Origin: an uncultured Alcanivorax sp.
GTDB lineage: Bacteria > Pseudomonadota > Gammaproteobacteria > Pseudomonadales > Alcanivoracaceae
Direction: 5' to 3'
NCBI RefSeq assembly: GCF_947258575.1
Contig: NZ_CAMYIV010000011.1
Coordinates: 372,001 to 436,000 of the forward strand
Length of the DNA stretch: 64,000 nt
Below, piece by piece: positions 16,961 to 51,960 of this stretch. The stretch's first letter is position 1. The number at the start of each line of letters is the position of its first letter. Made by a program: the position numbers and the translations under genes. Below the pieces are notes generated by a model. The model ran no database searches and was not told the DNA's origin. It saw only the letters and a program-made list of their open reading frames with translations.

Positions 16961-17142
16961 AGTTGAAAGTTAAAAGTTGAAAGTTAAAACGCGAATTAGT
17001 GGGGTTGCCAACTGAATAGGGACTGAGCCGCGCCGCCTGACTTTAATTTGTAGCAAATAAAGTCTGGGTCGCGGCCACCGAGTTTCTCGATTGCTGGTGA
17101 CCTTGACCGCGCTTTTAAACTTTGAACTTTATACTTTCAACT
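16961..17142. repeat. Heptad-armed inverted element (AGTTRAA family), copy 1
   Basis: The left arm (16961-16995) is AGTTGAA, AGTTAAA, AGTTGAA, AGTTAAA, ACGCGAA. The right arm (17108-17142), read on the other strand, is AGTTGAA, AGTATAA, AGTTCAA, AGTTTAA, AAGCGCG. The core holds a nested hairpin at 17027-17075 (GCCGCG/CGCGGC outside, GACTTTA...TAAAGTC inside). No coding capacity is seen. It separates the hydratase/dehydrogenase gene from the dehydrogenase pair. Confidence 0.8.
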
Positions 17143-17194
17143 CGATGACCACGGTGGTGAAAACGCTCAACAACCTTTCAAGAGGTTCTGAAAG

Positions 17195-18391
17195 ATGGAT
17201 ATCAATTACACCCCGGAAGAACTGGCGTTTCGCGATGAAGTGCGCGCCTTTCTGGACGAGAAGCTGCCCAAGGAAATTGCCAGCAAGGTGAAAAAAAACC
17301 AGCACCTGGGCAAGGAAGACACCATCCGCTGGCAGAAAATTCTCAACGAAAAAGGCTGGATGGCCCTGCATTGGCCGAAGGAACATGGCGGCACCGGCTG
17401 GTCCCCGATCCAGAAGCATATCTTCGAGGAAGAGTGCGCCGAGTACGGTGCCCCCACCGTGTTGCCCTTTGGTGTGAACATGGTGGCGCCGGTAATCATC
17501 AAGTTCGGCACTGAAGAGCAGAAGAAAACCTATCTGCCCTCCATCCTTAACAGTGATGTGTGGTGGTGTCAGGGGTATTCCGAGCCGGGTGCCGGTTCGG
17601 ATCTGGCCGGGTTGAAAACCAAGGCCGTCCGTGAAGGCGACCACTATGTGGTCAACGGTCAGAAAACCTGGACCACCCTGGGCCAGCATGCGGACTGGAT
17701 CTTCTGTCTGGTACGCACCGACCCCAACGCCAAGAAGCAGGAAGGCATTTCCTTCCTGCTGATCGACATGCAGACCCCGGGCATCACTGTGCGTCCGCTG
17801 ATCACCCTGGACGGCGAGCACGAAGTGAACGAAGTGTTCTTCGACGACGTGAAAGTGCCGGTGGAAAACCTGGTCGGTGAAGAGAACAAGGGCTGGACCT
17901 GCGCCAAGTACTTGCTGACCTTCGAACGTACCGGTATTGCCGGTGTGGGCCAGTCCAAGGCGGCGCTCAAGCATCTCAAGGACGTGGCTGGCAAGGTTCA
18001 GCAGAACGGCAAGCCGCTGATTGAAGACCCGCTGTTCCGCAACCGTCTGGCGGATGTGGAAATGGAGCTGATGGCCCTGGAAATGACCAACCTGCGTACC
18101 GTGGCAGCAGCCCAGGCCGGCGGTGTCCCCGGCGCGGAAAGTTCCTTCCTGAAAATCATGGGTACCGAGCTGCGTCAGGAAATTACCGACCTGTTCCGTC
18201 GTGCGGCGGGCCCGTACGCCCAGCCGTTCCTGCCGGAAACCTTTGAAGCGGATTACGACGGCGAGATGGTGGGCCCGGACTTTGCCAACAGCGTTTCCAC
18301 CAAGTACTTCAATATGCGCAAGCTGTCGATCTTCGGTGGTTCCAACGAAATTCAGAAGAACATCATCGCCAAGATGATTCTCGGTCTGTAA
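17195..18391 (+). CDS. Acyl-CoA dehydrogenase, large subunit (PimC-like)
   Basis: FAD-dependent dehydrogenase of 398 residues, with an ACAD N-terminal helical domain, the FAD/substrate loop WWCQGYSEPGAGSDLAGLKT, the flavin-contact motif KTWTTLGQHADWIF, and a C-terminal domain ending SIFGGSNEIQKNIIAKMIL. It is followed 12 bp later by a second, diverged ACAD gene. Such adjacent pairs form alpha2beta2 enzymes in pimelate and steroid side-chain catabolism. The sequence resembles PimC of Rhodopseudomonas as I remember it. It would form the trans-2-enoyl-CoA used by the upstream hydratase. Confidence 0.9.
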   Translation: MDINYTPEELAFRDEVRAFLDEKLPKEIASKVKKNQHLGKEDTIRWQKILNEKGWMALHWPKEHGGTGWSPIQKHIFEEECAEYGAPTVLPFGVNMVAPVIIKFGTEEQKKTYLPSILNSDVWWCQGYSEPGAGSDLAGLKTKAVREGDHYVVNGQKTWTTLGQHADWIFCLVRTDPNAKKQEGISFLLIDMQTPGITVRPLITLDGEHEVNEVFFDDVKVPVENLVGEENKGWTCAKYLLTFERTGIAGVGQSKAALKHLKDVAGKVQQNGKPLIEDPLFRNRLADVEMELMALEMTNLRTVAAAQAGGVPGAESSFLKIMGTELRQEITDLFRRAAGPYAQPFLPETFEADYDGEMVGPDFANSVSTKYFNMRKLSIFGGSNEIQKNIIAKMILGL

Positions 18392-18403
18392 GGAGTATTG
18401 AGC

Positions 18404-19581: not shown

Positions 19582-19602
19582 GATAAATAATATTTCTTAC
19601 CC

Positions 19603-19774
19603 GTAGGAGCGTCGCTGGCGGCGCGATAAAAGACCAGGATCAAAAGCACTCTCACCACAGAGGGCACAGAGTACACAGAGAAGAACCCGTTTTTTTCTCA
19701 GTGATCTCTGTGTCCTCTGTGGTAAATACCGCTTTTCAGGTTTTGGGTGATCGCGCCGCCAGCGACGCTCCTAC
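19603..19774. repeat. GTAGGAGC REP hairpin enclosing a heptad-armed element
   Basis: A perfect 25-bp inverted repeat (19603-19627 and 19750-19774, beginning GTAGGAGCGTCGCTGGCGG) encloses a second inverted repeat (19654-19681 and 19696-19723). The arms of the inner repeat are 7-bp units: ACCACAG, AGGGCAC, AGAGTAC, ACAGAGA on the left; ACCACAG, AGGACAC, AGAGATC, ACTGAGA on the right (minus strand). One mobile or repetitive element has apparently landed inside another. No coding potential. Confidence 0.8.
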
Positions 19775-19802
19775 AGGTAGGTTTGAAATCCGGGAGAGCA
19801 CC

Positions 19803-27605: not shown

Positions 27606-27731
27606 ACCACAGAGGGCACAGAGTGCACTGAGAAAACCCCTTGCCTGGAAGGCCTGTAAGCGGCTTTCAGAAACCAGCGGCGTTGCAAACAGCAGTTTGT
27701 TTTTCTCTGTGTACTCGGTGACCTCTGTGGT
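27606..27731. repeat. Heptad-armed inverted element (ACCACAG/AGGGCAC family)
   Basis: The left arm 27606-27633 reads ACCACAG, AGGGCAC, AGAGTGC, ACTGAGA. The right arm 27704-27731, on the other strand, reads ACCACAG, AGGTCAC, CGAGTAC, ACAGAGA. Its core differs completely from that of the same family at 19654-19723. It fills the divergent spacer between the quinone reductase and the MBL-fold gene. Confidence 0.8.
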
Positions 27732-27751: not shown

Positions 27752-28771
27752 ATGTCACTACACTATCCGTTCACTGATCTGCCGCCGGCAGGCCAGCGTT
27801 TCAAGGTGGCCGACGGGGTTTACTGGCTGCGTTTCCCGCTGCCCTTTGCCCTCGACCATATCAATCTCTGGTTGCTGGAAGATAACCATGGCTGGGTAAT
27901 CGTGGATACCGGCCTGGGAGTGCGCCGCAGCCGGGACATCTGGCAGCAGCTGTTGGCCGAACAACTGGACGGCAAGCCGGTGACCCGCATCATCGTCACC
28001 CATTACCACCCGGACCATCTCGGCATGGCCGGCTGGTTGCAGCAACACTGCCAGGCGCCGGTGATCATGAGCCGCGGCGAGTGGCAGTTGGCCAGCCATA
28101 TCTGTGACGCCAGCGATGAACAGACCATCCAGCGCTTCAAGCATTTTCTCGGCAGCCATGGCCTGCAGGGCGACAACCTCGACAAGGTGGCCGGCAAGGG
28201 CAATGGCTTCCGCCGGGTGGTGATGCCCATGCCTACCGACCCGCAATTTGTCGGTGCCGGTGACAGCCTGACTATCAATGGTCAGCACTGGCAGATTCAC
28301 ATCGGTCGTGGCCATGCTCCCGAGCACCTGTGTCTGTACCGGAATGACGATCGCTTGCTGATCAGCGGCGACCAGGTGTTGCCCACCATTTCCAGCAATC
28401 TTATGGTGCGGCCCACGGAACCGGAGGCGAACCCGGTGGTAGCGTTTGTGGACAGCCTCAAGGCAATTCGCGATGCCCTGCCGCAGGACACCCTGGTTTT
28501 GCCGGCCCACGGCCTGCCGTTCCGGGGTCTGCATCACCGCATCAATGCGCTGGTCGCCCATCACGACCAGCAACTGGACCAGGTACAGGCCGCCTGCCGT
28601 CATCACCCCCACAACGCCCACGATATTCTGCCGGTGATGTTCAACCGGGAGCTGGATGTGCAGCAGCTCATGTTTGCCATGGGTGAAAGCATTGCGCATC
28701 TCAATTGTCTGGTGGAGCAGGGGCGGGTGCAGCGCGAAGACCGCGATGGGATCTGGCACTTCGCGGCCTGA
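27752..28771 (+). CDS. MBL-fold metallo-hydrolase
   Basis: A 339-residue metallo-beta-lactamase-fold protein. The metal motif THYHPDHLGMAG (HxHxDH) lies near residue 88, the next His ligand is in GRGHAPEHLCLY, and the bridging Asp is in LLISGDQVLP. The C-terminus (VLPAHGLPFRGLHHRINAL and beyond) resembles the winged-helix tail of LACTB2-like hydrolases. Family members cleave thioesters, RNA or lactones; the substrate is unknown. The start is ATG 27752; the TTG six bases upstream lacks a ribosome site. Confidence 0.88.
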   Translation: MSLHYPFTDLPPAGQRFKVADGVYWLRFPLPFALDHINLWLLEDNHGWVIVDTGLGVRRSRDIWQQLLAEQLDGKPVTRIIVTHYHPDHLGMAGWLQQHCQAPVIMSRGEWQLASHICDASDEQTIQRFKHFLGSHGLQGDNLDKVAGKGNGFRRVVMPMPTDPQFVGAGDSLTINGQHWQIHIGRGHAPEHLCLYRNDDRLLISGDQVLPTISSNLMVRPTEPEANPVVAFVDSLKAIRDALPQDTLVLPAHGLPFRGLHHRINALVAHHDQQLDQVQAACRHHPHNAHDILPVMFNRELDVQQLMFAMGESIAHLNCLVEQGRVQREDRDGIWHFAA

Positions 28772-28782
28772 TCAAGAAGGTG

Positions 28783-28945
28783 AGCTACAAGCTTCAAGCT
28801 GCAAGATACAAGGCACGGAGAACGGTATAGCCATCCGACCAGCGCTTTCCTCCGCGTTGCAGCAAACGCTGTAACGCGGGCATGGCTTGGCAGTTTATTC
28901 GTGGCTCGCACGCGCCTTGTAGCTTGTAACTTGAAGCTTGTAACT
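28783..28945. repeat. Heptad-armed inverted element (AGCTNCA family)
   Basis: The left arm 28783-28817 reads AGCTACA, AGCTTCA, AGCTGCA, AGATACA, AGGCACG. The right arm 28911-28945, on the other strand, reads AGTTACA, AGCTTCA, AGTTACA, AGCTACA, AGGCGCG. It fills the convergent spacer between the MBL-fold gene and the membrane protein gene, so it could serve as a terminator for both. Confidence 0.8.
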
Positions 28946-28949
28946 CTTC

Positions 28950-31702: not shown

Positions 31703-31873
31703 GGTTGAAAGTGTAAAGTTCAAAGTTGAAACGCGACTGAGTCAGTCGCCACCCCTTGCACTCATTCCCTCGCAATGGCGGGCTTGAGAGCCAGCATTGG
31801 GGCGCGACGATATCGCTTATCGAATGGCAGATTCCCATCCCGCGTTTCAACGTTAAACTTTGAACGTTCAACT
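31703..31873. repeat. Heptad-armed inverted element (AGTTNAA family), copy 2
   Basis: The left arm 31703-31737 reads GGTTGAA, AGTGTAA, AGTTCAA, AGTTGAA, ACGCGAC. The right arm 31841-31873, on the other strand, reads AGTTGAA, CGTTCAA, AGTTTAA, CGTTGAA, ACGCG. The arms belong with the copy at 16961-17142, but the cores are unrelated. It lies in the divergent spacer between dehydrogenase and thiolase. Confidence 0.8.
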
Positions 31874-31893: not shown

Positions 31894-33096
31894 ATGCTGG
31901 ATGCCTATATTTACGACGGCCTGCGAACCCCCTTTGGTCGCCATGGTGGCGCCCTGGCACCGGTGCGGCCGGATGATCTGTTGGCCGGGGTGATCCGTGA
32001 GCTGGTGCAGCGCAACGGGTTCGAGCTGTCCCGCTATGAAGATGTGGTGATCGGTAATACCAATCAGGCCGGGGAGGATGCCCGCAATGTGGCGCGCCAC
32101 GCCGGGTTGCTGGCGGGGCTGCCGGAATCCGTGGCCGGGATAACCGTTAACCGCCTGTGTGGCAGTGGCCTGGCGGCGACGCTGGATGCCGCGCGCATGG
32201 TGACGGTGGGCGAGGGCGAGCTGATCGTGTCTGGCGGTACCGAATCCATGAGCCGGGCGCCCTTTGTGATGGCCAAGGCGGAGAAAGCCTTTAGCCGCGA
32301 CATGACCATTTTCGATAGCACCATCGGTGCCCGCTTTCCCAACCCGGCCATTCTCCGCCAGTTCGGTGCCGACACCATGCCGGAAACCGCCCAGAACGTG
32401 GCGGACGATCTGGGCATCAGCCGTGACGCATCAGATGCGTTTGCCGCCCGCTCGCAGCAGCGCTACCAGGCCGCCCGGGAGCGCGGTTTCTACCAGGCAG
32501 AAATTCTGCCGGTCACCGTTCCCCAGGGCCGCAAGAAAGATCCGCTGACTGTGGCAGAGGATGAGCATCCCCGTGCCGGCACCACTGCCGAAAAATTGGC
32601 AAAACTGCCTGCTATCGTTGAGGGTGGCACCATCACCGCAGGGAATGCATCGGGCGTGAATGACGGCGCGGCGGCACTGATTATCGGTTCTCGCGCTGCC
32701 GGTGATGCGGCGGGCATTGCGCCCCGCGCACGGATTCTCGCCGGTGCCGTGGCCGGTGTGGCGCCCCGTGTGATGGGGCTGGGACCGGTAGAGGCCTGCA
32801 ACAAGGCACTGGCCCGGGCCGGGCTGACCCTGGACCAGATGGATGTGATCGAAATTAACGAGGCGTTCGCCACCCAGGTCTTAGGCTGTTGCAAGCAGCT
32901 GGGCCTGGCCGGCGATGATGAACGCCTGAACCCGAATGGTGGCGCCATTGCTGTGGGCCATCCACTGGGGGCGTCCGGCGCTCGCCTGGCCCTCACCGCC
33001 ATGCGCCAGCTGGAAGCCATTGGTGGTCGCTATGCGCTGGTCAGTTTGTGTATTGGGGTGGGGCAGGGCGTGGCCATGGTGATTGAAAGGCAGTGA
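31894..33096 (+). CDS. Acetyl-CoA C-acyltransferase (PcaF/PimB-like thiolase)
   Basis: This thiolase cleaves 3-ketoacyl-CoA with CoA. It has 400 residues from ATG 31894 (GGGAGAG six bases upstream). The nucleophile is C89 in NRLCGSGL, with His H356 in VGHPLGASGA and the second Cys C386 in SLCIGVGQG. The CIGVGQG ending and overall pattern resemble beta-ketoadipyl-CoA thiolases as well as general biosynthetic/degradative thiolases. It lies directly upstream of glutaryl-CoA dehydrogenase, which suits dicarboxylyl-CoA degradation. Its stop codon lies inside the first heptad of a repeat. Confidence 0.9.
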   Translation: MLDAYIYDGLRTPFGRHGGALAPVRPDDLLAGVIRELVQRNGFELSRYEDVVIGNTNQAGEDARNVARHAGLLAGLPESVAGITVNRLCGSGLAATLDAARMVTVGEGELIVSGGTESMSRAPFVMAKAEKAFSRDMTIFDSTIGARFPNPAILRQFGADTMPETAQNVADDLGISRDASDAFAARSQQRYQAARERGFYQAEILPVTVPQGRKKDPLTVAEDEHPRAGTTAEKLAKLPAIVEGGTITAGNASGVNDGAAALIIGSRAAGDAAGIAPRARILAGAVAGVAPRVMGLGPVEACNKALARAGLTLDQMDVIEINEAFATQVLGCCKQLGLAGDDERLNPNGGAIAVGHPLGASGARLALTAMRQLEAIGGRYALVSLCIGVGQGVAMVIERQ

Positions 33097-33126
33097 ACAG
33101 TTAATAGTGAATAGTTAACAGCGAAA
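33092..33126. repeat. Single-armed heptad array (AGTTAAY family)
   Basis: Five consecutive 7-bp units: AGTGAAC, AGTTAAT, AGTGAAT, AGTTAAC, AGCGAAA. No inverted partner is nearby. The thiolase TGA is part of the first unit, so the array directly abuts the gene. It leaves only 15 bases before the next start codon. Confidence 0.75.
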
Positions 33127-38329: not shown

Positions 38330-38467
38330 AGTTAATAGTGAATAGTTAACAGTTAACAGCGAAACCAGTCGTAGCGTCAGACGTGGGAGCTATCTTGAAT
38401 GCGTCGTTTGGCCTGAGGAGAGTGGTGATTGGGAGCATAATTCGCTATTACTTGTTCACTGTTAACT
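38330..38467. repeat. Heptad-armed inverted element (AGTTAAY family)
   Basis: The left arm 38330-38364 reads AGTTAAT, AGTGAAT, AGTTAAC, AGTTAAC, AGCGAAA. The right arm 38441-38467, on the other strand, reads AGTTAAC, AGTGAAC, AAGTAAT, AGCGAA. The same heptads occur as single arms at 33092-33126 and 51894-51960. It fills the spacer between the DUF1330 and dienelactone hydrolase genes. Confidence 0.8.
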
Positions 38468-39812: not shown

Positions 39813-40451
39813 TTACGATGGCCGCTGGCTTGCCGGGAATTCGCACAGATCTGCGATCAGACATTCGCCACATTTGGGTTTGCGGGCCGTACACACATAG
39901 CGGCCGTGCAGGATCAGCCAGTGATGCGCATCGCGCAGGAATTCCTCCGGCACCAGCCGTACCAGCCGTTTTTCTACTTCCAGCACATTCTTGCCCGGTG
40001 CAATGCGGGTGCGGTTGGATACCCGGAAAATGTGTGTGTCTACCGCCATGGTGGGCAGCCCATAGGCCGTATTGAGCACCACATTGGCGGTTTTGCGACC
40101 CACACCGGGCAGCGCTTCCAGCGCTTCGCGGGTACGCGGCACCTGGCTATCATGCTGCTCAAGGAGAATTTTACACAGCTGAATGATGTTTTCGGCCTTG
40201 GAATTAAACAGGCCGATGGTCTTGATGTACTCTTTAAGCCCGTCGACCCCCAGGGCGAAGATCGCCTCTGGGGTATTGGCCACCGGATAGAGCCTGGCGG
40301 TGGCCTTGTTCACGCCCACGTCCGTGGCCTGGGCAGACAGCACCACGGCCACCAGTAACTCGAAATCGCTGCTGTATTCCAGCTCGGTGGTGGGGTGGGG
40401 GTTCTGATCCCGCAGACGGGTAAAGATTTCAGTTCGTTTTTCGCGATTCAT
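39813..40451 (-). CDS. nth: Endonuclease III
   Basis: A base-excision repair glycosylase/AP lyase for oxidised pyrimidines. The 212 residues include the helix-hairpin-helix LPGVGRKTANVVL with catalytic K120, the active-site D138 in AVDTHIF, and the [4Fe-4S] ligands C187, C194, C197 and C203, all at E. coli numbering or very close to it. In many gammaproteobacteria nth directly follows rsxE. Here it is separated from the Rsx operon by about 3.6 kb. Confidence 0.96.
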   Translation of the reverse strand: MNREKRTEIFTRLRDQNPHPTTELEYSSDFELLVAVVLSAQATDVGVNKATARLYPVANTPEAIFALGVDGLKEYIKTIGLFNSKAENIIQLCKILLEQHDSQVPRTREALEALPGVGRKTANVVLNTAYGLPTMAVDTHIFRVSNRTRIAPGKNVLEVEKRLVRLVPEEFLRDAHHWLILHGRYVCTARKPKCGECLIADLCEFPASQRPS

Positions 40452-40536
40452 AACAGCTTCCCGTTGTCGCGGGCAGTATAACGGATCAATCGGTGGCTGT
40501 GAGGGGCAAGCCTCAGCCGCCTACAAGGAGAAAGGG

Positions 40537-41721
40537 ATGCAGTTTTCCGCCATGGAAACCCTCATGGTCGCATTGTTGGTTCTGGGCGCCGGGCAGTGGA
40601 TCGTTCACAAGGTGGACTTGCTGTCGCGGCTGAACATGCCGGAGCCGGTTGTGGGTGGTTTGCTGGCGACCATTGTGGTCACTGCCATGCAGCTTTCCGG
40701 TATCAGCCTGACCTTTGATGAAAGCATCAAGACACCCGCCATGCTGTTTTTCTTCGGTGCGGTAGGCCTGGCCGCGGACTTTCGCCTGCTGCGCCGGGGC
40801 GGCTGGGCCATGCTGTTGTTCGCGACACTGGTAATCGTGCTGGTGGCACTGCAGGATCTGGCCGGGGTGATGATGGCCAAGTTGATGGGGCTGGATGCCT
40901 GGTATGGCCTGATTGGCGGCTCGGTGACCATGACCGGTGGCCACGGCACGGGGGCCGCCTGGGCGGGGGTCTTCGAGCGGGACTTCGGTCTTACCGGCGT
41001 CAGTGAACTGGCGGCGGCGTCTGCCACTTTCGGTCTGATATTCGGGGCGCTGCTGGGCGGGCCACTGGCCATGTTCCTGATTCGTCGCTACCGGCTTGCC
41101 GCACCGGCCCATGGTGCGGCGGCGGAAGACGCCGGGCATGACGAAGCGGAAACCCCTCGTCCCATTTCCGCCGCCAGCGTGATTCGCATCATGATGTTGC
41201 TGTCAGTGGGTGTGGTGGTCGGCACGGTGGCGGCGGAAGAGTTTGCGTCCGTGTTCCGGTTGCCCACCTTTGTCTGGGTGCTGTTTGTCTGCATTGTGCT
41301 GGGTAACACGGCTCGCCGACTGTGGCAGGTCAACGATGCCACCATCGATGTGGTGGGTAACACGGCGTTGGGGATTTTCCTGGCGATTACGTTAATGAGT
41401 CTGCAATTGTTGCAGCTGGTGGATCTGGCCCTGCCCATGATTGCCATGCTGCTGGTGCAGGTGGGGCTGGCGCTGGCGTTTATTACCCTGGTGACCTTCC
41501 GGCTGATGGGGCGCAACTATGATTCGGCGGTGCTCTGTGCGGGCCATTGCGGTTTTGCCATGGGGGCGACGCCCACAGCGGTGGCCAACATCCAGGCGGT
41601 GACCCAACATCATGGCCCGTCACCATTGGCGTTTATCATCGTGCCGGTGGTAGGGGGCTTTATCGTGGATATTGCCAACGCGACGATCATCCAGACGTTT
41701 GTATCGGTGTTGTCGGGGTGA
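40537..41721 (+). CDS. gltS: Sodium/glutamate symporter
   Basis: A 394-residue GltS-family transporter with about ten hydrophobic helices and the two re-entrant-loop motifs SVTMTGGHGTGAAWAGVF and GHCGFAMGATPTAVANIQAV, which are family hallmarks. It is divergent from nth with an 85-bp spacer and a GGAGAAAGGG ribosome site. A charged loop (residues about 188-212) joins the two halves. Confidence 0.93.
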   Translation: MQFSAMETLMVALLVLGAGQWIVHKVDLLSRLNMPEPVVGGLLATIVVTAMQLSGISLTFDESIKTPAMLFFFGAVGLAADFRLLRRGGWAMLLFATLVIVLVALQDLAGVMMAKLMGLDAWYGLIGGSVTMTGGHGTGAAWAGVFERDFGLTGVSELAAASATFGLIFGALLGGPLAMFLIRRYRLAAPAHGAAAEDAGHDEAETPRPISAASVIRIMMLLSVGVVVGTVAAEEFASVFRLPTFVWVLFVCIVLGNTARRLWQVNDATIDVVGNTALGIFLAITLMSLQLLQLVDLALPMIAMLLVQVGLALAFITLVTFRLMGRNYDSAVLCAGHCGFAMGATPTAVANIQAVTQHHGPSPLAFIIVPVVGGFIVDIANATIIQTFVSVLSG

Positions 41722-41735
41722 TCGTAAAGGCGCCA

Positions 41736-41764
41736 TAAAAAAGCCCGCAGACGCGGGCTTTTTT
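41736..41764. terminator. Bidirectional terminator between gltS and the glycine-zipper gene
   Basis: AAGCCCGC-AGAC-GCGGGCTT stem flanked by A-run and T-run, serving both convergent genes. Confidence 0.92.
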
Positions 41765-41781
41765 ATCCAGGCAGGAAAGGG

Positions 41782-42312
41782 TTACTGGGTAACCACTTCC
41801 CCTTCTTCGATACGCAACCGCTCGCCGGGCTTTTTGTCCATGCGAATAGTGTCTTCCTGATCATTGAAGACATAGGTCACGTCATAACCTTCTGTACGAC
41901 TCTTGTCTTCCATCACGGTGTTACAGCGCTGCTCCGTGGTGGTGTAGGTATTTTTTTCCTGCATGCCTTTCTGGATTTGATTACCTGCTACACCACCGGC
42001 AATGGCACCACCCGCGGTAGCCGCATCTTTACCGCTACCACCGCCAAACTGGTGGCCGATCACACCGCCAACCACAGCACCGACAACACTCCCGGTAACC
42101 CTGTGTTGGTCTTTGACCGGTTTCTTGCGTTCCACGGTTACCTGCTGACAGACCTCACGGGGTTCCTGCCAGGTTTTCACAATCGGGTCCACATTCACCA
42201 CTTCGGCATAGCCTGAGGTAGCGGGGGTTATGGCCTGGTAAGCGCCATAGCCGACACCGGCGATGGCCACGGCCCCTACGATACCCAGGGCGGCAACTGC
42301 TGCGCTTTTCAT
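41782..42312 (-). CDS. Glycine-zipper 2TM domain protein
   Basis: The 176-residue protein has an N-terminal hydrophobic segment and a central glycine zipper (GSVVGAVVGGVIGHQFGGGS ... AGGAIAGGVAGNQI), as in the Rickettsia 17-kDa antigen/SlyB family. The C-terminus (YDVTYVFNDQEDTIRMDKKP) is a conserved beta segment of these proteins. It is probably membrane-associated and linked to envelope integrity. There is no lipobox Cys, so it is likely anchored by its N-terminal helix. Confidence 0.85.
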   Translation of the reverse strand: MKSAAVAALGIVGAVAIAGVGYGAYQAITPATSGYAEVVNVDPIVKTWQEPREVCQQVTVERKKPVKDQHRVTGSVVGAVVGGVIGHQFGGGSGKDAATAGGAIAGGVAGNQIQKGMQEKNTYTTTEQRCNTVMEDKSRTEGYDVTYVFNDQEDTIRMDKKPGERLRIEEGEVVTQ

Positions 42313-42411
42313 GGCTCACTCCTTATTGGTTGGTTGTGCCTAGTATGATCCTGTAATGGCCATAATGTTCGTTGCCTGGCGCACACCAAGTGCAAAAGAA
42401 TGTGAATTTAA

Positions 42412-42676
42412 GGGAGTCTTTGGGTCACTCCTTGCATACTCAGCGTGGCCTGAAGGGTGCAGCTGTTGTGTTTTGTCGCGACGGACAGGGTGGCTCCCTT
42501 TCCTAGCGACAAAGCGCAGCAGATGGGCCCTTCAGGCCGCGCCCTCCGGGTCTTCCAGGCTGGCCCGTACTCGTTGTTGCAATGTCTCGATGGGTGGACA
42601 CACACCTTCAACATTGCGCCTAGATTACGAATCAGTCTGAAAGACTGAGTATGCAAGGAGTGACCCAAAGACTCCC
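42412..42676. repeat. 265-bp element with perfect 32-bp terminal inverted repeats
   Basis: GGGAGTCTTTGGGTCACTCC and the next 12 bases at 42412-42443 recur exactly inverted at 42645-42676. Inside, GGCCTGAAGGG (42448-42458) pairs with CCCTTCAGGCC, and TTTGTCGC pairs with GCGACAAA, giving a second long hairpin in the left half. No protein is encoded, and no obvious target duplication flanks it. It occupies most of the 389-base gap 42313-42701. It resembles a MITE or a highly structured RNA. Confidence 0.75.
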
Positions 42677-42701
42677 TCGCCGTTCAATAGAACGCAAAAA
42701 A

Positions 42702-43265
42702 TTACATGTACAGCAAATAAATGGGCATGATGATCTCTTCTTCATCGTCCATGTGGCGGTGCAGCAGCCGGATCAGTTTGTCGGCCTGGGCGTGGGCTTC
42801 ACTAATCACCTGGGTTGCCGGTTTTTGTTCTGCAAAACGGCGCAAATTGCGATCCAGTTCTTCCAGGCTGGCCTCCAGCACCCCGTGATCCTGCTCGAGA
42901 AGATCGAAGCCGGCGGTCAGTCTGGGATGATCCCGGCGCAGAACCGGAAACACGCTACTGTCCTCGTAGCCATGATGGCTGTGCAGATTGCGCAGCAGGC
43001 TTTTACCAAGCTGCTCCACCTCCACCATTCCATCCATGTCTGCACCGGCTGATTCGCGCTGGTTCAGTAGCTGCTCAAGGCTTGCGTGGTAATGGCGAGC
43101 CTGTCGTTTCAGGCTGTTGTGGTTGCGCTGCAAGGGGCGAGCGTTGCTGATCAGGTAATTTTCATGCTCACGCCATTCCTCGCGAGGCAATGCGATCAGT
43201 CTGTTGCGCACCTCTTCCGGCAACCCTTGCCGTGATAGCACATGATGATCTGATTTGAATGCCAT
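42702..43265 (-). CDS. Hemerythrin-domain protein
   Basis: A 187-residue HHE/hemerythrin-like four-helix protein likely to bind a di-iron centre. Candidate ligands lie in RNLHSHHGYEDSSVFPVL, LLEQDHGVLEASLEEL and LLHRHMDDEEEIIMP. Such proteins sense or carry oxygen or nitric oxide. The frame is open to 43391, but ATG 43265 (AGGGAGCG upstream) is the likely start, because the extension overlaps the divergent gene. Confidence 0.85.
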   Translation of the reverse strand: MAFKSDHHVLSRQGLPEEVRNRLIALPREEWREHENYLISNARPLQRNHNSLKRQARHYHASLEQLLNQRESAGADMDGMVEVEQLGKSLLRNLHSHHGYEDSSVFPVLRRDHPRLTAGFDLLEQDHGVLEASLEELDRNLRRFAEQKPATQVISEAHAQADKLIRLLHRHMDDEEEIIMPIYLLYM

Positions 43266-43378
43266 GATTCGCTCCCTGGTTGATGGGGGCACTATAGGTT
43301 TTTGTTTGCCTGCAATGAATCGGGTTAAATGATGCCGTTTTATCAGACCATCTGATCTTTGGGGAACGGGGAACAACA

Positions 43379-43804
43379 ATGCTGGATACACAGCTGCAAG
43401 CGGAATACTTTCATCTTACCAACCTGATCGATGCCTTCGACCAGAAGTCACTCACGATCAAGGCCTGGAGCGTCACTCTGGCTGGCATTCTGGCTGGGTC
43501 CGGTGCCTTCTTCGACCGGCCGGCGCTATTGTGGGTGGGTGTGCTGGGCAGTTTGCTGTTCTGGTTGGTGGAAGGGCACTGGAAGGCGTTTCAGTCGGCG
43601 CATTTTGCGCGTATCGAAAAGATTGAAGCCTATTTTCGTGGCGAAGTAGACGATATAGCCCCGTTCCAGACCGCCGCCAGCTGGGATCGCAGCCGCAAGA
43701 GCGGTGGCTTTGCCGAGTTGCTGCGCATTCTCCGCTGGCGCCATGTGTTTCTGCCACATGGGTTGGTGGCGGTGGCGTTATTGGTGGCGGCAGGGCTTGT
43801 GTAG
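43379..43804 (+). CDS. Membrane protein of unknown function, 141 aa
   Basis: It has three hydrophobic segments (AWSVTLAGILAGSGAFF; LLWVGVLGSLLFWLVEG; HGLVAVALLVAAGLV) and an amphipathic N-terminus (QAEYFHLTNLIDAFDQKSL). No family was recognised with confidence. The last codons and stop (GTGTAGGAGCG) run into a REP element. Confidence 0.65.
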   Translation: MLDTQLQAEYFHLTNLIDAFDQKSLTIKAWSVTLAGILAGSGAFFDRPALLWVGVLGSLLFWLVEGHWKAFQSAHFARIEKIEAYFRGEVDDIAPFQTAASWDRSRKSGGFAELLRILRWRHVFLPHGLVAVALLVAAGLV

Positions 43805-43928
43805 GAGCGAAGTGAAGCAGCTAGTGGCGAGTAACGAGGAGCGAGTTTTGAAAACCTAAACAATCCTGGGTTTTGCCTTTCGTGGCTCGCTTCTCGTTAC
43901 TCGTTACTGGGCAAGCGAACGCTCCTAC
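43801..43928. repeat. REP-bounded heptad-armed element (AGNNNCG family)
   Basis: The outer repeat GTAGGAGCG (43801-43809) / CGCTCCTAC (43920-43928) encloses heptad arms. The left arm 43823-43850 reads AGTGGCG, AGTAACG, AGGAGCG, AGTTTTG. The right arm 43881-43908, on the other strand, reads AGTAACG, AGTAACG, AGAAGCG, AGCCACG. This is the second case of a REP pair enclosing a heptad element. Confidence 0.75.
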
Positions 43929-43956
43929 GGAGAGGTGGGTTCGGCTTGGGGGGAGA

Positions 43957-44039
43957 GGTGGATAACGCCTGCCGGCTAATCCACCCTACGGGAGGTTGGT
44001 GTGTGGGTAGGGTGGATTAGCCGGCAGGCGTTATCCACC
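43957..44039. repeat. Perfect 33-bp inverted repeat (GTAGGGTGGATTAGC type)
   Basis: GGTGGATAACGCCTGCCGGC and the next 13 bases (43957-43989) recur exactly inverted at 44007-44039, with a 17-base loop. It lies just downstream of rsxE and could terminate that operon. Similar GTAGGGTGGATTA repeats are common in proteobacterial genomes. Confidence 0.8.
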
Positions 44040-44057
44040 ATGATGCGATGACGGTTG

Positions 44058-44771
44058 TTAACTGACTTTCCCGGTGGTGCGTACCCGGCGGCTGACCTTG
44101 GGTTCGTCGCTGGCCCTGGCTTTCTGGATCGCCTTGAGGCGTTTGTCGATCACGTTCTTGCCGGCAATGATCAAACCCAGGCCCACGAAAGCGCCCGGGG
44201 GCAGGATGGCGAACAGGAAGCCGCCGTAGTTTTCCACCACCTGTAGCTGCCAGTCCGCCGCCATGGGGCCGAACAGCAGCTGCATGTTGGTGAACAGGGT
44301 GCCCTGGCCGATCAGCTCGCGCATGCCGCCCAGGATCAGCAGAATCACCAGAAAGCCCAGCCCCATCATGAAACCGTCCAGTGCTGCTGGCAGTACCGGA
44401 TTCTTGCTGGCAAAGGCATCGGCACGGCCCAGCACGGTGCAGTTGGTAACGATCAGCGGAATGAAGATGCCGAGGATTTCGTACAGCTCGAAGGTGAAGG
44501 CCTGCATCATCATTTCAATCACCGTCACCATGGCGGCGATGATCATCACGAAAGCGGGAAGACGTACCGCGTCGGTCACGTACTGGCGAATCAGTGACAC
44601 GCAGATGTTGGAGCCCATCAGCACCACCAGGGTGGCCAGGCCAAGGCCCAGCGCGTTGACCACGGTGCCGGTCACCGCCAGCAGGGGGCACAGGCCGAGA
44701 ATCTGCACGGTGGCCGGGTTGTTGTTCCACAACCCGTCCATGCTGATCTTCTTGTAGTTCACATCACTCAT
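44058..44771 (-). CDS. rsxE: Rnf/Rsx electron transport complex subunit E
   Basis: A 237-residue inner-membrane subunit of the six-subunit Rnf/Rsx complex, with about six hydrophobic helices. Typical motifs are [20 protein letters not shown] near the start and [20 protein letters not shown], with the membrane Cys residues. The start is ATG 44771, which overlaps the end of rsxG by 8 bases; the open frame further upstream is not used. It is the last gene of rsxABCDGE. Confidence 0.94.
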
Positions 44772-45411: not shown

Positions 45412-46448
45412 GAGTCACCCCCTTGTTTGGCGCTGTTGGTGCCCCGGTTCGCCTTGTTGTGCCCGTAGGTCCGTGGCTGGGTGTAGTAATCGATAAAGGG
45501 GGCGCACAGGTTAAGCAGCAGCACCGAGAACGCCACCGCATCCGGGTAGCCGCCAAAGCTGCGGATCACCCAGATCAGCACACCGATCAGCGCTGCATAG
45601 ATCAGCCGGCCGCTGCGGCTGGTGGCGGCGCTCACCGGGTCGGTGGCGATAAAGAAGGCGCCCAGCATGGCGCCGCCGGAGAATATCTGGAACATCGGGT
45701 CGGAAAACCGCACCGGGTCGATCAGCCAGGCGACCAGGGCGGGCAGCGCCAGGCCGCCCAGAAAGCCCACCGGGATATGCCAGGTAATGATCTTGCGGCT
45801 GATCAGATACAGGCCGCCCAGCAAGAAGGCCAGGTTCAACCATTCCCAGCCCAGCCCGGCAAACTGGCCATGCAGGATGCTGTGGCTGGCCAGTTCGCTC
45901 TCGTTGCCGGCCCAGGTGCGGAAGGTATCCAGGGGCGTGGCGCCGCTCAGGCCGTCCACCGGCAACTGGCCGGTAAACAGCTGCCAGCTTTGCGCCAGGC
46001 TGGGCGCTTCGCCGGGGGCGATCCACTGGGTCATGGCCACCGGGAACGAAATCAACAGCAGCACATAGCCGACCATGGCCGGGTTGAACGGGTTCATGCC
46101 CAGGCCACCGTAGAGCTGCTTGGCAACGATAATGGCAAAGCCCACCCCGATCAGGGTCAGCCACCAGGGGGAGGTGGGCGGCAGGGCCAGGGCCAGCAGC
46201 ACGGCGGTGAGCACCGCACTGTAGTCCTTCAGGTAGAAGGCAACCGGACGACCGCGGGCTTTCAGGATCAGCGCCTCACTGACCAGTGCCACCACCACGG
46301 CCCACAGCACATTGATCACCGTGCCCCAGCCAAACAGCCAGGTCAGTACCGCCAGGCCGGGCAGGGTGGCGTAAATCACCTGGCGCATGAAGGCACCGGT
46401 GTTGTTGCTCACCGTGGTGTGGGGCGAGGTTGAAGAGATCAGTGCCAT
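45408..46448 (-). CDS. rsxD: Rnf/Rsx complex subunit D
   Basis: A 346-residue membrane subunit (NqrB/RnfD family) with about ten helices. The covalent FMN motif is GLSGATPLDTFR, and the N-terminal block is SPHTTVSNNTGAFMRQVIYA. GGLGMNPFNPAMVGYVLL is also conserved. Start and stop overlap the neighbouring genes (ATGA junctions), so the operon is translationally coupled. Confidence 0.95.
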   Translation of the reverse strand: MALISSTSPHTTVSNNTGAFMRQVIYATLPGLAVLTWLFGWGTVINVLWAVVVALVSEALILKARGRPVAFYLKDYSAVLTAVLLALALPPTSPWWLTLIGVGFAIIVAKQLYGGLGMNPFNPAMVGYVLLLISFPVAMTQWIAPGEAPSLAQSWQLFTGQLPVDGLSGATPLDTFRTWAGNESELASHSILHGQFAGLGWEWLNLAFLLGGLYLISRKIITWHIPVGFLGGLALPALVAWLIDPVRFSDPMFQIFSGGAMLGAFFIATDPVSAATSRSGRLIYAALIGVLIWVIRSFGGYPDAVAFSVLLLNLCAPFIDYYTQPRTYGHNKANRGTNSAKQGGDS

Positions 46449-49333
46449 CAGTCTTGCAGTCCTTGTTCTTCTACCGCCTGCTTGAGCGCCATGCGGGCGA
46501 TCTGGGCTTCCGCCTCCAGGGCCTGTAATTCGGAACTGAGGGCTTCCAGAGTGTCTTCCGAGGCGCTATCGCGCTGTTGTTCGAGCTCGCGCTGTTTGTC
46601 GCCAAGGGCACTTTCTGCCCGGGCGGCTTCCAACTTGAGGGTTTTCAGGTCCTTGCCGGTGTGAGCGCGGATATCCGCCTTGGCTTCTTCCACCAACGCA
46701 TCCAGGGCATCGCGGGCCACGTCGGCCTTGCCCTTCAGCTTGTCCACTTTGCGCTCCATGGCATTGAGCTCTTCGGCGGGAATATCGCCGTTACGCTCGC
46801 CGCGCTCCAGGGCGGCATGGGCTTCCTTGTACTGTTTGTGGGCCATGTTGTAGGCGGTTTTCAGGGCCTTGAGCCGCTTCTGGCGCTTGGCAGCCACCTC
46901 TGGATCTACCGCCGTCAGAGCCTGCGGGGCCTCGGTTTCCGGGGCTTTGGGGGTATCCGTGGGGGCCGGTGGTGTTTTGGGTGTAGCCGGCGCGGGGGCG
47001 GAGGCTTTTGCTTCGCGGAGCTCGGCTTTCCAGTGATCGGCCTCGGCTTTCAGGCGATCCGCTTCGGCGCGCAACTCGGCAGCGTTGTCGGCCCCGTTCT
47101 CGTCGGCCTCTTTGGCGGCTTTGACGGCGGCCTTGTAGGTGGAGGAGACCTCGCCCACTTTTGTCTTCAGGTCGGCCAGCGGGTCGGCTGGTGCTGCGGC
47201 AGGTGCCGGAGTGGGCGTAGCCGGCGCATTGGCCTTGGCGTCGCGCAGGTCGGCCTTGAGCTGGTCCGCCCTGGCTTTCAGTTCGTCCGCCTGGCTGCGG
47301 AGTTCGGCAGCGTTGTCGGCGCCGTTTTCTTCCGCTTCCTTGGCCGCTTTCACCGCTGCCTTGTAGGCGGAAGAGGCGTCACCCACCTGTTTCTTCAGGT
47401 CTGCCACCGGGTCAGCCTGGGGCGCTGCTGCCGGGGTGGCGGGGGCGCTGGCCTTGGCGTCACGCAGTTCCGCCTTGAGTTTGTCGGCGGCGGCCTTGAG
47501 CTCATCGGCTTTGGCGCGTAGCTCGGCGGCGTTGTCGTCGCCATTGGCTTCCGCTTCCTTGGCGGCTTTCACCGCCGTTTTGTAGGCAGTGGACGCCTCG
47601 CCAACCTGCTTCTTCAGATTGCCTACCAGGTCTTCTGCCGGTGCGGCGGCGGGGCCCGCATCCTTGGCGTCACGCACGGTGGCCTTGGCCTTGTCGGCCT
47701 CGGCTTTCAGGCGATCCACTTCGGCTTTCAGTTCATCGATGTTGTCGGCGCCTTCCGCCTCGGCGGCTTTAGCCGCTTTCACGGCAGCCTTATAGGCCTT
47801 GGAGGCGTCCAGGGACGCCTGTTTGAGGGCGGCCGTGTCGACTGAGGGTGCGCTGGTCTCGACTTTCTTCTTGCGGTTGGCTTCCAGCCGCGCCTGACGA
47901 CGGGCTTCTTTCTCGGCCTTTTCCGCTTCGATGCGGGCCTGGCGGGCTTCAAAGCGCTGGCGGGCCTTGTCGGCTTTTACCTGTTCCGCTGCCTGTTGGC
48001 GCACTTCTGCCTTGGCATAGCGGTAGTACTGCACCAGCGGGATATGGCTGGGGCACACATAGGCACAGGCGCCGCACTCGATGCAGTCCATCAGGTTATG
48101 GTGCTGGGCCTTTTCCAGATCGTCGTTCTTGGCGTGCCAGTAGAGCTGCTGGGGCAGCAGATTGGCCGGGCACACGTCGGCACAGGAGCCGCAGCGAATG
48201 CAGGGCTGTTCCGGCGGTGGCTCGGGCAGTTCTTCCAGGGTGGCGGCGATGATGCAGTTGGTGGTTTTCACCACCGGCACTGCCGGGTTGTGCAGGGTGA
48301 AGCCCATCATCGGGCCGCCCATGACCAGGCGGCCGATATTGTCCGGGTCTACGCCGCCATGCAGCAGCAGATCGCGTACCGGGGTGCCCAGTAGCACCTC
48401 CATATTGCCCGGCTGGCTCACGCCTTCGCCGGTGAGCGTGGTCACCCGCGAGAGCAGGGGCTCGCCGTCGATCACCGCTCGCTTGATGGCGTAGGCGGTG
48501 CCCACGTTCTGGCACACCACACCCACCTTTGCCGGTAGCTGGCCGCTTTTCACTTCCTTGCCGGTGAGCAGCTGAATCAGCTGTTTTTCGCCGCCGGAGG
48601 GGTACTTGGTGGGCACTACCCGCACGTCGATGTCGCAGCCCTTGCAGGCTCGCTTGATGGCGGAGATGGCGTCGGGCTTGTTGTCCTCGATGCCGATCAG
48701 GGTGCGGCGCGGATTGAGCAGGTATTGCAGGATGTTGATGCCGGCAATGATCTCGTCGGCGCGCTCGCGCATCAGGCGGTCGTCGGCGGTGATGTAGGGC
48801 TCGCACTCCACCGCATTGATCACCAGTTCTTCCACTCGCTGGTGGTCGCCCAGGTTCACCTTGATGCTGGTGGGGAAGCCGGCGCCACCCATGCCGGCGA
48901 TGCCCGCATGGCGGATGGTGTCCACCAGTTCGCCGGGGCTGCGCTCGGTGTAGTCGGCCACACCGGTGTGCTCGATCCATTCATCCTTGCCGTCGGTGTC
49001 GATGACGATACAGATGGCATCCATCCCGGACGGGTGCTGAATAGCGCGCGGGCCGATGGCGTTGACGGTGCCGGAGGTGGGGGCATGAATGGCCGCGCTC
49101 ACCGCGCCGCTGGGCTCGGCAATCATCTGGCCTTTCAGGACTCGCTCACCGGGTTCCACCAGCGGTTTGGCCGGGGCGCCGATGTGCATGTTCAGTGGCA
49201 GTATCAGCTGCGCCGGCATCGGGCCGGGGACAATGGCGGTGCCGTTGGAAAGCGCTTTCCTTTCCGGCGGGTGAATACCGCCGTGGAAGTCGTAGACCTT
49301 GCGGCTGCGCGAACTGAACAGGGTACGAATCAC
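46448..49333 (-). CDS. rsxC: Rnf/Rsx complex subunit C with expanded repeat tail
   Basis: The NADH/ferredoxin-side subunit of the complex. Residues 1-about 445 are the conserved part: an N-terminal GGIHPPERK segment, the NADH/FMN-binding domain ([15 protein letters not shown]) and two [4Fe-4S] clusters ([34 protein letters not shown]). From about residue 450 a charged helical stretch begins. At about 500-780 there are four copies of a 70-76-residue Ala/Lys/Glu/Asp repeat, followed by another coiled coil. At 961 residues it is longer than E. coli RsxC (about 740). The start is GTG 49333, overlapping the rsxB stop. Confidence 0.95.
46990..47830 (-). repeat. Four tandem coding repeats in the RsxC tail
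   Basis: The module Y-K-x-A-V-K-A-A-K-x-A-E-x-x-G-x-D-N ... ELRDAKA ... P/A linker ... LKKQVG recurs four times. At DNA level the GTTGTCG landmarks lie at 47084, 47312, 47531 and 47741, spaced 228, 219 and 210 bases, all multiples of three. The near-identity of the copies at DNA level suggests recent expansion. Confidence 0.85.
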
Positions 49334-49914: not shown

Positions 49915-50495
49915 AACTTGATCAGCCCGGAAAAGCCCATGAAGGCCAGCGACATCAGGCCGGCGGTGATCAGGCCGATGCTGGGGCCACGGAACGCTTC
50001 CGGCACATCGGCCACGGCAATACGCTCACGCATGGCGGCAAACAGCACCAGCACCAGGGAAAAGCCCAGCGCCGCGCCCAGCCCGTAGGTGAGCGATGAC
50101 ATAAAGGTGGCATCTTCCTGGCGTACATTCAGCAGTGCCACACCCAGCACCGCACAGTTAGAGGTGATCAGCGGCAGGAACACGCCCAGCACCCGATAGA
50201 GCAGGGGGCTGGCCTTCTTCACGAACATCTCGGTGAACTGTACCGCCACGGCGATCACCAGAATAAAGCTGATGGTGCGCAGGTACTCCAGCTCGAAGGG
50301 CACCAGAATATAGGCCCAGGTCAGGTAGGCGAGCACGGACGACAATGTCAGCACAAAGGTGGTCGCCAGGGACATGCCCATGGCGGTCTCGATCTTGTTG
50401 GAGACCCCCATAAAGGGACACAGCCCCAGGAACTGCACCAGGACAAAATTGTTTACCAGCACAGCGCTGATCAGAATCAGGACGTACTCTGTCAT
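49911..50495 (-). CDS. rsxA: Rnf/Rsx complex subunit A
   Basis: A 194-residue membrane subunit homologous to NqrE, with six hydrophobic helices. The conserved motifs [19 protein letters not shown] and [18 protein letters not shown] carry the Cys residues thought to hold an intramembrane iron centre. It is the first gene of rsxABCDGE. The complex couples NADH-ferredoxin redox chemistry to an ion gradient and, in enterics, keeps SoxR reduced. Confidence 0.96.
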
Positions 50496-50776
50496 GTGAT
50501 CGTGGCTCGCTTGCCGAAGAATAGGGGTTAAACGCTGTGTTTACAGGGCGTTAAGGGCGCATAGTATGAGGCAGCGCCCCGGTTGGCTCAAGAATGATAA
50601 TGCATAAGCTTACTTGACTGCAGACGACAGTCATTGACTGCGAATTAACCAGTTGATGCCCCTTTTGCCATGCTTTTTGCCCCGGACGGTTGCGGCGCTG
50701 CCAGCAATCCAGTATCCAAGGCAGACAATAACGCGACGAGACCGGCCAGCGCCGGTTGCTGCAGAGGTGACCCCCA

Positions 50777-51913
50777 GTGACAGATTTGCCCCGTGACTTT
50801 GACCGAGACGGCCTGCTTGAGTATTCCGTGGTTTTCACCGACCGCTCCCTGAACCACATGTCCCAGCGTTTCCAGCAGGTGATGCGGGATATTTCCAGCA
50901 ACCTGAAGCAGGTCTACAACGCCCACTCGGTTACCGTGGTGCCCGGTGGCGGCAGCTTCGGCATGGAAGCAGTGGCCCGTCAGTTCGCCACCGCCCAGCA
51001 TTGCCTGGTGATCCGTAACGGCTTCTTCAGCTTCCGCTGGAGCCAGATCTTTGAGATGGGCAGCATCCCGTCCAAAGAGACCGTATTGAAGGCCGCCCCC
51101 ATCAGCGACCAGCCCCAGGCACCGTTCGCCCCGGCACCCATTGAGCAGGTGGTCGATACCATCAAGGCCGAAAAGCCGGCCATGGTGTTCGCCCCCCATG
51201 TGGAAACCGCCTCCGGCATCATCCTGCCGGACGACTACCTGAAACAGGTGGCCGATGCCGTACACAGCGTGGGCGGCCTGTTCGTACTGGACTGCATTGC
51301 TTCCGGCACCATCTGGGTGGACATGAAAAAGGTCGGTGTGGACGTACTGATCAGCGCCCCCCAGAAAGGCTGGAGCTCCTCGCCCTGTAGCGCCCTGGTG
51401 ATGCTCAGCGAAGCCGCCGACCAGCGCCTGCACGAAACCACCAGCACCAGCTTCGCCTGCGACCTGCGCAAATGGCGCGACATCATGATCGCCTATGAAA
51501 ACGGCGGCCATGCCTACCACGCCACCATGCCCACCGATGCCCTGCGCGGCTTCCGTGACACCATGCTGGAAACCATGAAAGAAGGCCTCACCGCCGTGAA
51601 GGAACGCCAGTGGAAACTGGGCACCGCCGTGCGCGAGCTGATGGCGAAGCACGGCTTCGCCAGCGTCGCCGCCCCCGGCTTCGAAGCCCCCGGCGTAGTG
51701 GTGTCCTACACCGACAACGACACCATCAAGAGCGGCGCCGCCTTCGTCCAGCTCGGCTTGCAGACGGCCGGGGGCGTGCCCCTTATGTGCGACGAACCGG
51801 CAGACTTCAAGACCTTCCGCGTGGGCCTGTTCGGCCTGGACAAGCTGGGGGATGTGGATGCGGCGGTGGCGCGGCTGGAGGCGGCGTTGAATCAGTTAAC
51901 AGTTAACAGTTAA
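50777..51913 (+). CDS. Class V aminotransferase (alanine-glyoxylate/serine-pyruvate type)
   Basis: A 378-residue PLP enzyme of fold type I. The PLP-binding lysine is K197 in LISAPQKGWSSSP; the cofactor Asp is in LFVLDCIASGTIW, and the N-terminal Gly-rich loop is VVPGGGSFGMEAVARQF. It starts at GTG 50777 with GAGGTGA upstream. The last residues (QLTVNS) and the stop codon are encoded by a heptad repeat array, so the natural C-terminus has been replaced or extended. It is divergent from rsxA with a 281-base spacer that shows no gene. Donor and acceptor are uncertain. Confidence 0.88.
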   Translation: MTDLPRDFDRDGLLEYSVVFTDRSLNHMSQRFQQVMRDISSNLKQVYNAHSVTVVPGGGSFGMEAVARQFATAQHCLVIRNGFFSFRWSQIFEMGSIPSKETVLKAAPISDQPQAPFAPAPIEQVVDTIKAEKPAMVFAPHVETASGIILPDDYLKQVADAVHSVGGLFVLDCIASGTIWVDMKKVGVDVLISAPQKGWSSSPCSALVMLSEAADQRLHETTSTSFACDLRKWRDIMIAYENGGHAYHATMPTDALRGFRDTMLETMKEGLTAVKERQWKLGTAVRELMAKHGFASVAAPGFEAPGVVVSYTDNDTIKSGAAFVQLGLQTAGGVPLMCDEPADFKTFRVGLFGLDKLGDVDAAVARLEAALNQLTVNS

Positions 51914-51960
51914 TAGTTAATAGTTAATAGTTAATAGTTAATAGTTAATAGTTAACAGCG
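51894..51960. repeat. Long single-armed heptad array (AGTTAAY family)
   Basis: Nine consecutive units: two AGTTAAC, six AGTTAAT, one AGTTAAC, then AGCG. It starts within the aminotransferase reading frame and supplies its stop codon. No inverted right arm is seen. It is the longest and most uniform array in the window, so a likely site of copy-number variation. Confidence 0.88.

Follow-up and report, generated by a model that had tools for sequence, protein, structure and literature searches.

A 64,000-nucleotide stretch of an uncultured Alcanivorax sp. genome (the window) carries several copies of a small intergenic element whose inverted arms are built from tandem 7-bp units (heptads). We interpret these elements, with moderate confidence, as dispersed, two-fold symmetrical, non-coding cassettes at gene ends, often with a hairpin resembling a bidirectional terminator, whose arms recombine. 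Their anatomy, their position at gene ends, the agreement of both arms in heptad type, the inversion of cores in place and the presence of different whole cassettes at three sites are documented from sequence comparison. The source genome of the window ("own", 3.5 Mb) was sampled over 864 kb (800 kb of stretches and the 64-kb window) and used in comparisons covering 17 genomes of the genus (among them those numbered G001 to G016 in the text); G210, G304 and G383 denote other genomes. Heptad families, or dialects, are named by their degenerate codes (AGTKAAY, ARTKGAY, AGTTNAA, AGTTNMA, AGCTNCA and AGNNNCG). Genes were called with a simple home-made codon-usage caller.

The 7-bp period is real, specific and far above chance. 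In a scan for self-matches at fixed offsets, with shuffled sequence as the control, the window contains five loci at period 7 (20 shuffles, mean 0.05, maximum 1), and among offsets 4–15 nothing appears besides 7 and its multiple 14. The 864-kb sample has 82 loci at 7 bp, whereas three shuffles give 0, 1 and 0. Twenty-eight loci appear at offset 14 and nine at 21, both multiples of 7, and all other offsets from 2 to 24 give at most seven each. G004 has 62 period-7 loci in 640 kb and G013 has 58 in 400 kb; G001 is nearly without them (two in 400 kb). A preliminary description of this DNA had proposed a class of elements whose 7-bp period is recognised by a protein or recombination complex or arises by a copying process, and had suggested comparison with shuffled sequence. 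Run on whole stretches, intergenic and genic, that comparison does not refute the period. The class is real, and a link to recombination is supported by the inverted cores and differing whole cassettes described below; recognition by a protein stays a proposal. Its statement that most units begin with AG and that the families differ also held, and several heptad families coexist. An apparent strand bias of the arrays in G004 was rejected as a mere effect of listing.

The canonical element is about 160 bp long and consists of four heptads, a CGCG junction, a spacer and a GC-rich palindrome, followed by the mirror image. The sample of the source genome holds 36 facing-arm elements (37 pairs minus one contig-end artefact), or 44 with a looser detector, and some 150–180 are therefore expected in the whole genome. 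AGTKAAY elements are the most uniform: of 44 sampled from three genomes, 26 have four units in each arm and 33 have a gap of 101–109 bp between the arms. Of 398 arms of all heptad types, 247 have CGCG, a feature absent from the preliminary description, at their inner edge and 30 have it at their outer edge. Within AGTKAAY arms, the T/G position mostly alternates between adjacent units (174 alternating versus 100 equal pairs, with long arrays counted in), a hint of a 14-bp sub-period. Three local duplicates of one heptad element plus its flanks are located at about 3207000, 3215500 and 3224000 of contig C1 in G004.

The canonical core palindrome (for example, AAGAGGCCGCGCCCA-loop-TGGGCGCGGCCTCTT) forms a GGCCGCG hairpin. 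Judged by the arm threshold, 51 of 55 such hairpins have at least one arm, and weak arms are visible by eye at three of the remaining four; the G001 sample contains no GGCCGCG hairpins. We collected 199 distinct elements (213 including repeats) from the own, G004 and G013 samples and from other Alcanivoracaceae loci. Seventy-two of the distinct cores carry the hairpin GGCCGCG...CGCGGCC and 19 the variant GCCCGCG...CGCGGGC, so the earlier reading of the cores as unrelated was too strong and is rejected. The copies in the window are among the less canonical examples, and the shared hairpins are visible in the rest of the genome.

In 173 of the 199 distinct elements (187 of 213 with repeats), both arms are built from heptads of one group; permutation gives a mean of 57 and a maximum of 80. 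At the convergent site C12:376371 of the source genome (site 1), the flank is present in all 17 genus genomes and armed elements in 16. Both arms are concordant in all 16 armed species, 11 with the A form and five with the G form, several arms having only one or two units; in G001, the hairpin is kept with a mere trace of arms. Sister pairs by the flank tree differ in dialect at this site (own/G003, G004/G012, G007/G011 and G008/G010). Genome-wide matches to AGTKAAY and ARTKGAY, two patterns of unequal degeneracy whose matches overlap within one arm, number 346 and 23 in own versus 75 and 186 in its sister G003, and 374 and 26 in G004 versus 31 and 174 in its sister G012. G002 has 0 and 92; G011 (34 and 36) and G016 (121 and 122) are mixed. 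The zero in G002 had been read as a lack of elements, a reading rejected because G002 uses the other dialect. The backwards control of the ARTKGAY count is unclean, exceeding the pattern itself in AGTKAAY-rich genomes (116 versus 23 in own); 39 of 43 backwards-control matches in the own sample lie in or beside AGTKAAY runs. Another backwards-pattern control gave 25 matches versus 54 for the true pattern.

Alternatively, the arms could be bound by a protein acting on the nucleoid, in uptake or in recombination, whose specificity drifts so that most arms of a species share one dialect, as with ComP and the dialects of DNA uptake sequences. The species-level shifts (own/G003, G004/G012 and G002) and the agreement of arms in all armed species at site 1 are consistent with such a protein, as are the inverted uptake-sequence pairs at Neisseriaceae terminators described in the available part of PMC3630211. 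However, several dialects coexist within single genomes, G011 and G016 are mixed, and among comparable close relatives a change of dialect mostly accompanies a different core and not point changes of the arms alone. We regard this explanation as improbable.

The elements are concentrated at gene ends. Among 98 elements in the own, G004 and G013 samples, 51 lie between convergent genes, 38 between tandem genes and five between divergent genes, with four in a gene or without two neighbours; the 899 background intergenic regions of at least 100 bp divide into 188, 483 and 228, respectively (odds ratio for the convergent excess 5.8, Fisher p 3e-14). The median distance from the arm edge to the stop codon is −5 nt, against 43 nt to start codons, and 121 of 140 stop-side edges fall within −25 to +15 nt. 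Convergent elements are flush with the stops on both sides in 41 of 51 cases. Clusters of repetitive extragenic palindromic (REP) sequences in the same DNA are not flush, with 39 of 153 within −25 to +15 nt of a stop. Inward open frames of at least 150 codons are met by 102 of 122 AGTKAAY arms, with the stop inside the heptads in 60 of the 102, and by 70 of 116 AGCTNCA arms, with the stop inside the heptads in nine of the 70. Since 7 equals 1 modulo 3, consecutive TAA/TGA triplets land in consecutive frames; stops in all three frames are present in 75% of AGTKAAY arms (11% when shuffled) and in 73% of 15 ARTKGAY arms (20% when shuffled). Of the strand-wise tails of GGCCGCG hairpins, 115 of 144 have at least five T in 12 nt, in a genome with 21% T.

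Spacers (the core minus the hairpin) were compared between orthologous elements, giving 100 distinct pairs at 15 sites, mostly site 1. Twelve pairs match directly, nine match only when inverted (two sites), and 79, mostly distant, match neither way; the false rate of inverted matches in the control is 0.4%. The spacers of G015 and G006 align at 0.93 inverted and 0.63 direct, those of G003 and G012 at 0.85 and 0.61, and those of G003 and G004, at another site, at 0.83 and 0.55. Where the near flanks are at least 89% identical, and with three self-pairs of 100% flank identity removed, the spacer is kept in all 11 pairs of the same dialect (one inverted and one a local duplication within G004) and is at the random level in all six pairs of different dialect (three sites). 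The spacers of G004 and G012, which differ in dialect, score 0.55/0.53, consistent with replacement. At site 1, own and G003 differ starting no more than about 10 nt from the stop codons, although the adjacent coding DNA stays alike (identity 93.8% in the BLAST-matched near flanks and 0.88 across the 2.6 kb from which the tree was built). The site C5:281581 is occupied by an AGTTNAA cassette in own and by short cassettes with AGNNNCG-type arms in six relatives, and three others have no such element there; a comparison at site 2 leaves out G001.

A simpler account would invoke strong bidirectional terminators and translation stops under selection, with no recombination system, the swaps being ordinary allelic transfer between species. 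It would explain the gene-end position, the T-rich tails and the all-frame stops. It also suits the ARTKGAY allele lineage at site 1, which is common to G003 and G012 (inverted) and resembles those of G011 and G002 while the sisters carry another, and the same site 1 hairpin kept without clean arms in G001. Heptad arms, however, are not required for a terminator, own and G003 begin to differ close to the stops in otherwise similar DNA, and the cores inverted in place imply recombination between arms. We consider this account rather unlikely.

The reading that we favour is one of cassettes with recombining arms. A cassette abuts the stop of the gene running into it and, between convergent genes, usually spans from stop to stop. 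The GGCCGCG-type hairpin would end transcription both ways, and AGTKAAY and ARTKGAY heptads would stop translation in each of the three frames. The core would be flipped, and both arms kept in one dialect, when the inverted arms recombine with each other, and replacement would represent exchange with lineages of other dialects, with boundaries set by the arms. It may further be that a dedicated recombination system, so far unrecognised, acts at the arms to flip and exchange the cassettes, with the 7-bp spacing as its recognition rule and the dialect of each species reflecting the specificity of its own recombinase or binding protein; this extension is speculative and we give it rather little credence.

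Several results weigh against the favoured reading. Of the 199 distinct cores, 108 fit neither strict hairpin pattern. The unit-by-unit match of both arms is borderline, 130 and 94 of 2000 permutations being equally high. In the gene calls, a frame ends at its first stop by definition, which favours small distances for stop-rich arms. Stop supply does not account for all families, because none of 70 AGCTNCA arms carries an inward stop and AGTTNMA arms do no better than chance (19% versus 17% shuffled); stop codons in all frames are not a general feature. GCCCGCG-type cores have no T tract (one of 38 tails with at least five T). A terminator scan of window positions 28000–44500, which include four facing-arm elements and the arm at 33091, found one weak site within them (28877) and 18 sites overall versus 14.9 expected. 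Inversions were found at two and replacements at three of the 15 comparable sites, and the spacer comparison was confined to elements whose hairpin was recognised, 102 of 213, the other 111 being left out. Two sister pairs of different dialect outside the set of six are borderline, G008/G010 (flank 0.94) at 0.58 direct and 0.64 inverted, and G007/G011 (flank 0.85) at 0.62 direct, near the upper limit of the control (0.61–0.62); they leave room for a change of dialect without replacement.

Inverted arms and many dispersed copies are also expected of miniature inverted-repeat transposable elements (MITEs; MITE/REPIN-like), moved in trans by an arm-binding transposase and surviving best between convergent genes. 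Sites occupied in one species and empty or with other repeats in another agree with such an origin, and the tail-to-tail bias of inverted-repeat families in Pseudomonas fluorescens was so read by its authors in the available text (PMC2718517). G001, the sole genome nearly without arrays, is also the only one of the 17 genus genomes without a match to the Y1 transposase (PF01797); the other 16 have it, including G002, which lacks AGTKAAY arrays. The preliminary description had looked to a gene whose presence tracks element number, and for this family, the only one tried, there is no clear relation. Other findings disagree with transposition. Dispersed recent copies are absent from the partial samples of own, G004 and G013, where the best core identity within a genome is 0.75 apart from the local duplications in G004. 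Sites in sister species hold other repeats or different DNA, with no clean empty site and no target duplication readable. Long-range arm pairs were sought across about 1.5 Mb of stretches from own and G004, where the enclosed frames were not scanned singly; no autonomous parent element was recognised among them, and such pairs look like two separate elements. The REP clusters of the same genomes do not share the flush position at stops. A transposable origin thus appears fairly unlikely to us.

According to the available part of PMC4692102, heptamers were noted in 2007 to be over-represented in bacteria; slippage was proposed for this, and no detailed study was known. Ordinary heptanucleotide simple repeats, arising as the polymerase slips with a preference for period 7, would fit this and the long direct arrays of 9–25 units, but slippage gives no inverted pairs with a gap of about 105 bp, no four-unit mode, no CGCG junction, no hairpin and no flips. 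As the whole story slippage is disfavoured and very improbable; single arrays may grow by it.

The preliminary description knew of no name for the class, which is not quite right. Inverted heptamer pairs are known from the Xanthomonas GGGAATC repeats, which the accessible text of Rehm et al. 2015 (PMC4692102) describes as G-quadruplex simple repeats with variable positions, mostly of four units, intergenic and on average 28 nt from the upstream open reading frame, with 70 facing opposite-strand pairs in Xcc and 75 in Xac. Facing heptamer arrays of about four units close to an upstream gene are shared with Alcanivorax. The heptad differs, the Xanthomonas units being G-rich and G-quadruplex-capable and AGTKAAY, AGTTNAA and AGCTNCA being without G-tracts, and the same text, as far as available, describes no bounded cassette, core, fixed gap, flip or dialect. 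The TAACTGA repeats of Beggiatoaceae, cyanobacteria and Bacteroidetes (MacGregor 2015, PMC4679880) are likewise tandem, mostly intergenic heptamers with stop codons in the unit; in the portion of that paper available, however, they are direct (one indirect in the main genome) and mostly just upstream of starts, and no symmetrical cassette is described.

REP, BIME (bacterial interspersed mosaic element) and REPIN sequences and the P. fluorescens repeats resemble the cassettes in having inverted repeats around a variable core and a tail-to-tail gene bias (PMC2718517, in part). Family R6 of P. fluorescens Pf0-1 (Silby et al. 2009, PMC2718517), which is 177 bp long and has inverted repeats of 34 bp, is compared here by its description only, from the available part of that paper. 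REP/REPIN arms are short palindromes tagged GTAG or CGTC in the accessible text of PMC3733652. In the Alcanivorax genomes, REP sequences (GTAGGAGC type) are separate elements with palindromic arms and, unlike the cassettes with their tandem heptads, are not flush with stops. Terminal inverted repeats are shared with MITEs, but near-identical copies at unrelated sites were not found in the partial own, G004 and G013 samples. DNA uptake sequences are words of 10–12 letters. Those of Neisseriaceae have species dialects and inverted pairs at terminators (Frye et al. 2013, PMC3630211), but in the available text they are single words, thousands per genome and common inside genes, with no heptad tandem arms and no core flip described; 94 of the 98 heptad elements are placed between two called genes. 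The cassettes thus resemble each of these systems in part, and a full match to the tested defining features of any was not found. We file them as a variant of the inverted heptamer pair, with the Xanthomonas GGGAATC pairs as the closest published relatives. In the titles and abstract openings searched, heptad elements are not described as flipping, being swapped or having dialects, many subscription papers lying outside that search.

AGYTNMA arms with ACGCG were sought in a collection of 84,980 species genomes and match at least 111 stretches; among the 80 listed, 78 are from Alcanivoracaceae and the other two from a Pseudomonadales bin with a full element and a Bacteroidales bin with a single arm and hairpin. 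A gut Bacteroidales bin (L219, 200–500) has AGTTGAA/AGTTAAA heptads, then ACGCGG and a hairpin, apparently just past a gene end. Locus L202 of A. jadensis T9 has the same element as G003. Within the order, AGCTNCA arrays are present in ten of 244 genomes sampled, own among them, from five families, and GGGAATC arrays with facing pairs in one of 369 sampled genomes of the class (G383), where four loci examined lack the CGCG junction and the GGCCGCG hairpin and 400 kb shows no period-7 excess (two loci). Facing heptad pairs were also found in two other gammaproteobacterial genomes (G304 and G210), and AGTKAAY arrays in 52 viral-contig stretches of 29–64% G+C, four with a facing partner. The viral contigs L386, L396 and L368 have direct arrays of 22–25 AGTKAAY heptads.

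Inverted heptad pairs may thus be recurrent gene-end DNA, in Alcanivorax, G383 (with the Xanthomonas heptad), G304 and G210, with arrays of the same style extending to viral contigs. In the present material they take the form of bounded cassettes with a stop-to-stop position rule, a measurable flip, site-wise replacement and species dialects, which together make the bacterial preference for 7-bp repeats testable. They raise the questions of which factor binds the arms, whether the core terminates transcription both ways and how the dialect changes at many dispersed sites between sister species.

The features of the window are collected in Table 1. Inverted arms are present at all seven places where the preliminary description had reported them. 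Five of the seven are heptad elements; the other two, reported with an ACCACAG heptad, have a 9-bp unit according to Tandem Repeats Finder, and the heptad unit was rejected for them. The single arm at 33091 and the direct array at 51889 are additional to the seven.

Table 1. Heptad elements, heptad arrays and 9-bp-unit elements in the window
Feature	Position	Strand	Remarks
Heptad element, AGTTNAA dialect	16961..17142		Arms 16961–16993 and 17110–17142; inner CGCG junctions; nested GC-rich palindrome in core
Inverted element, 9-bp units CACAGAGNN, no heptads	19654..19723		Enclosed by inverted REP-like pair 19598–19627/19750–19779
Inverted element, 9-bp units CACAGAGNN, no heptads	27606..27731		
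Heptad element, AGCTNCA dialect	28783..28945		Arms 28783–28812 and 28916–28945
Heptad element, AGTTNAA dialect	31703..31873		Divergent genes either side; departs from the gene-end rule
Single heptad arm, AGTGAAC AGTTAAT AGTGAAT AGTTAAC	33091..33118	+	
Heptad element, AGTKAAY dialect	38330..38467		Begins 5 nt past the stop at 38324
Short heptad element, AGNNNCG arms	43823..43908		Core GAAAACC...GGTTTTGCCTTTCG
Direct array, about nine AGTTAAY heptads	51889..51962	+	

The element at 16961 sits between tandem genes, 30 nt past the stop at 16930. No heptads are present at this site in the seven other readable genus genomes (for G009, the available DNA reached just some 215 nt beyond the gene), a comparison that leaves out G016, G010 and G004 (39-base match). 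The element at 28783 occupies the gap of convergent genes (stops 28771 and 28950). The arm at 33091 contains the stop codon of the called gene 31894–33096, and the array at 51889 contains that (51911–51913) of the called gene 50777–51913. The arm type of the 43823 element matches that of the six relatives at C5:281581 of own, and a similar core motif is present in two of them (G014 and G010).

REP-like GTAGGAGCG copies surround both the 9-bp element at 19654 (19598–19779) and the heptad element at 43823 (43780–43950), as if small elements nested within common intergenic hot spots. Next to the latter, at 43957–44039, GGTGGATAACGCCTGCCGGCTAATCCACCCTAC forms a perfect inverted repeat of 33 nt around a 17-nt loop. 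Perfect 33-nt inverted arms, with 201 nt between them and more inverted repeats inside, are located at 42411–42677. A 219-bp tandem repeat of 2.6 copies (47057–47632) lies within the reverse-strand frame 46448–49333.

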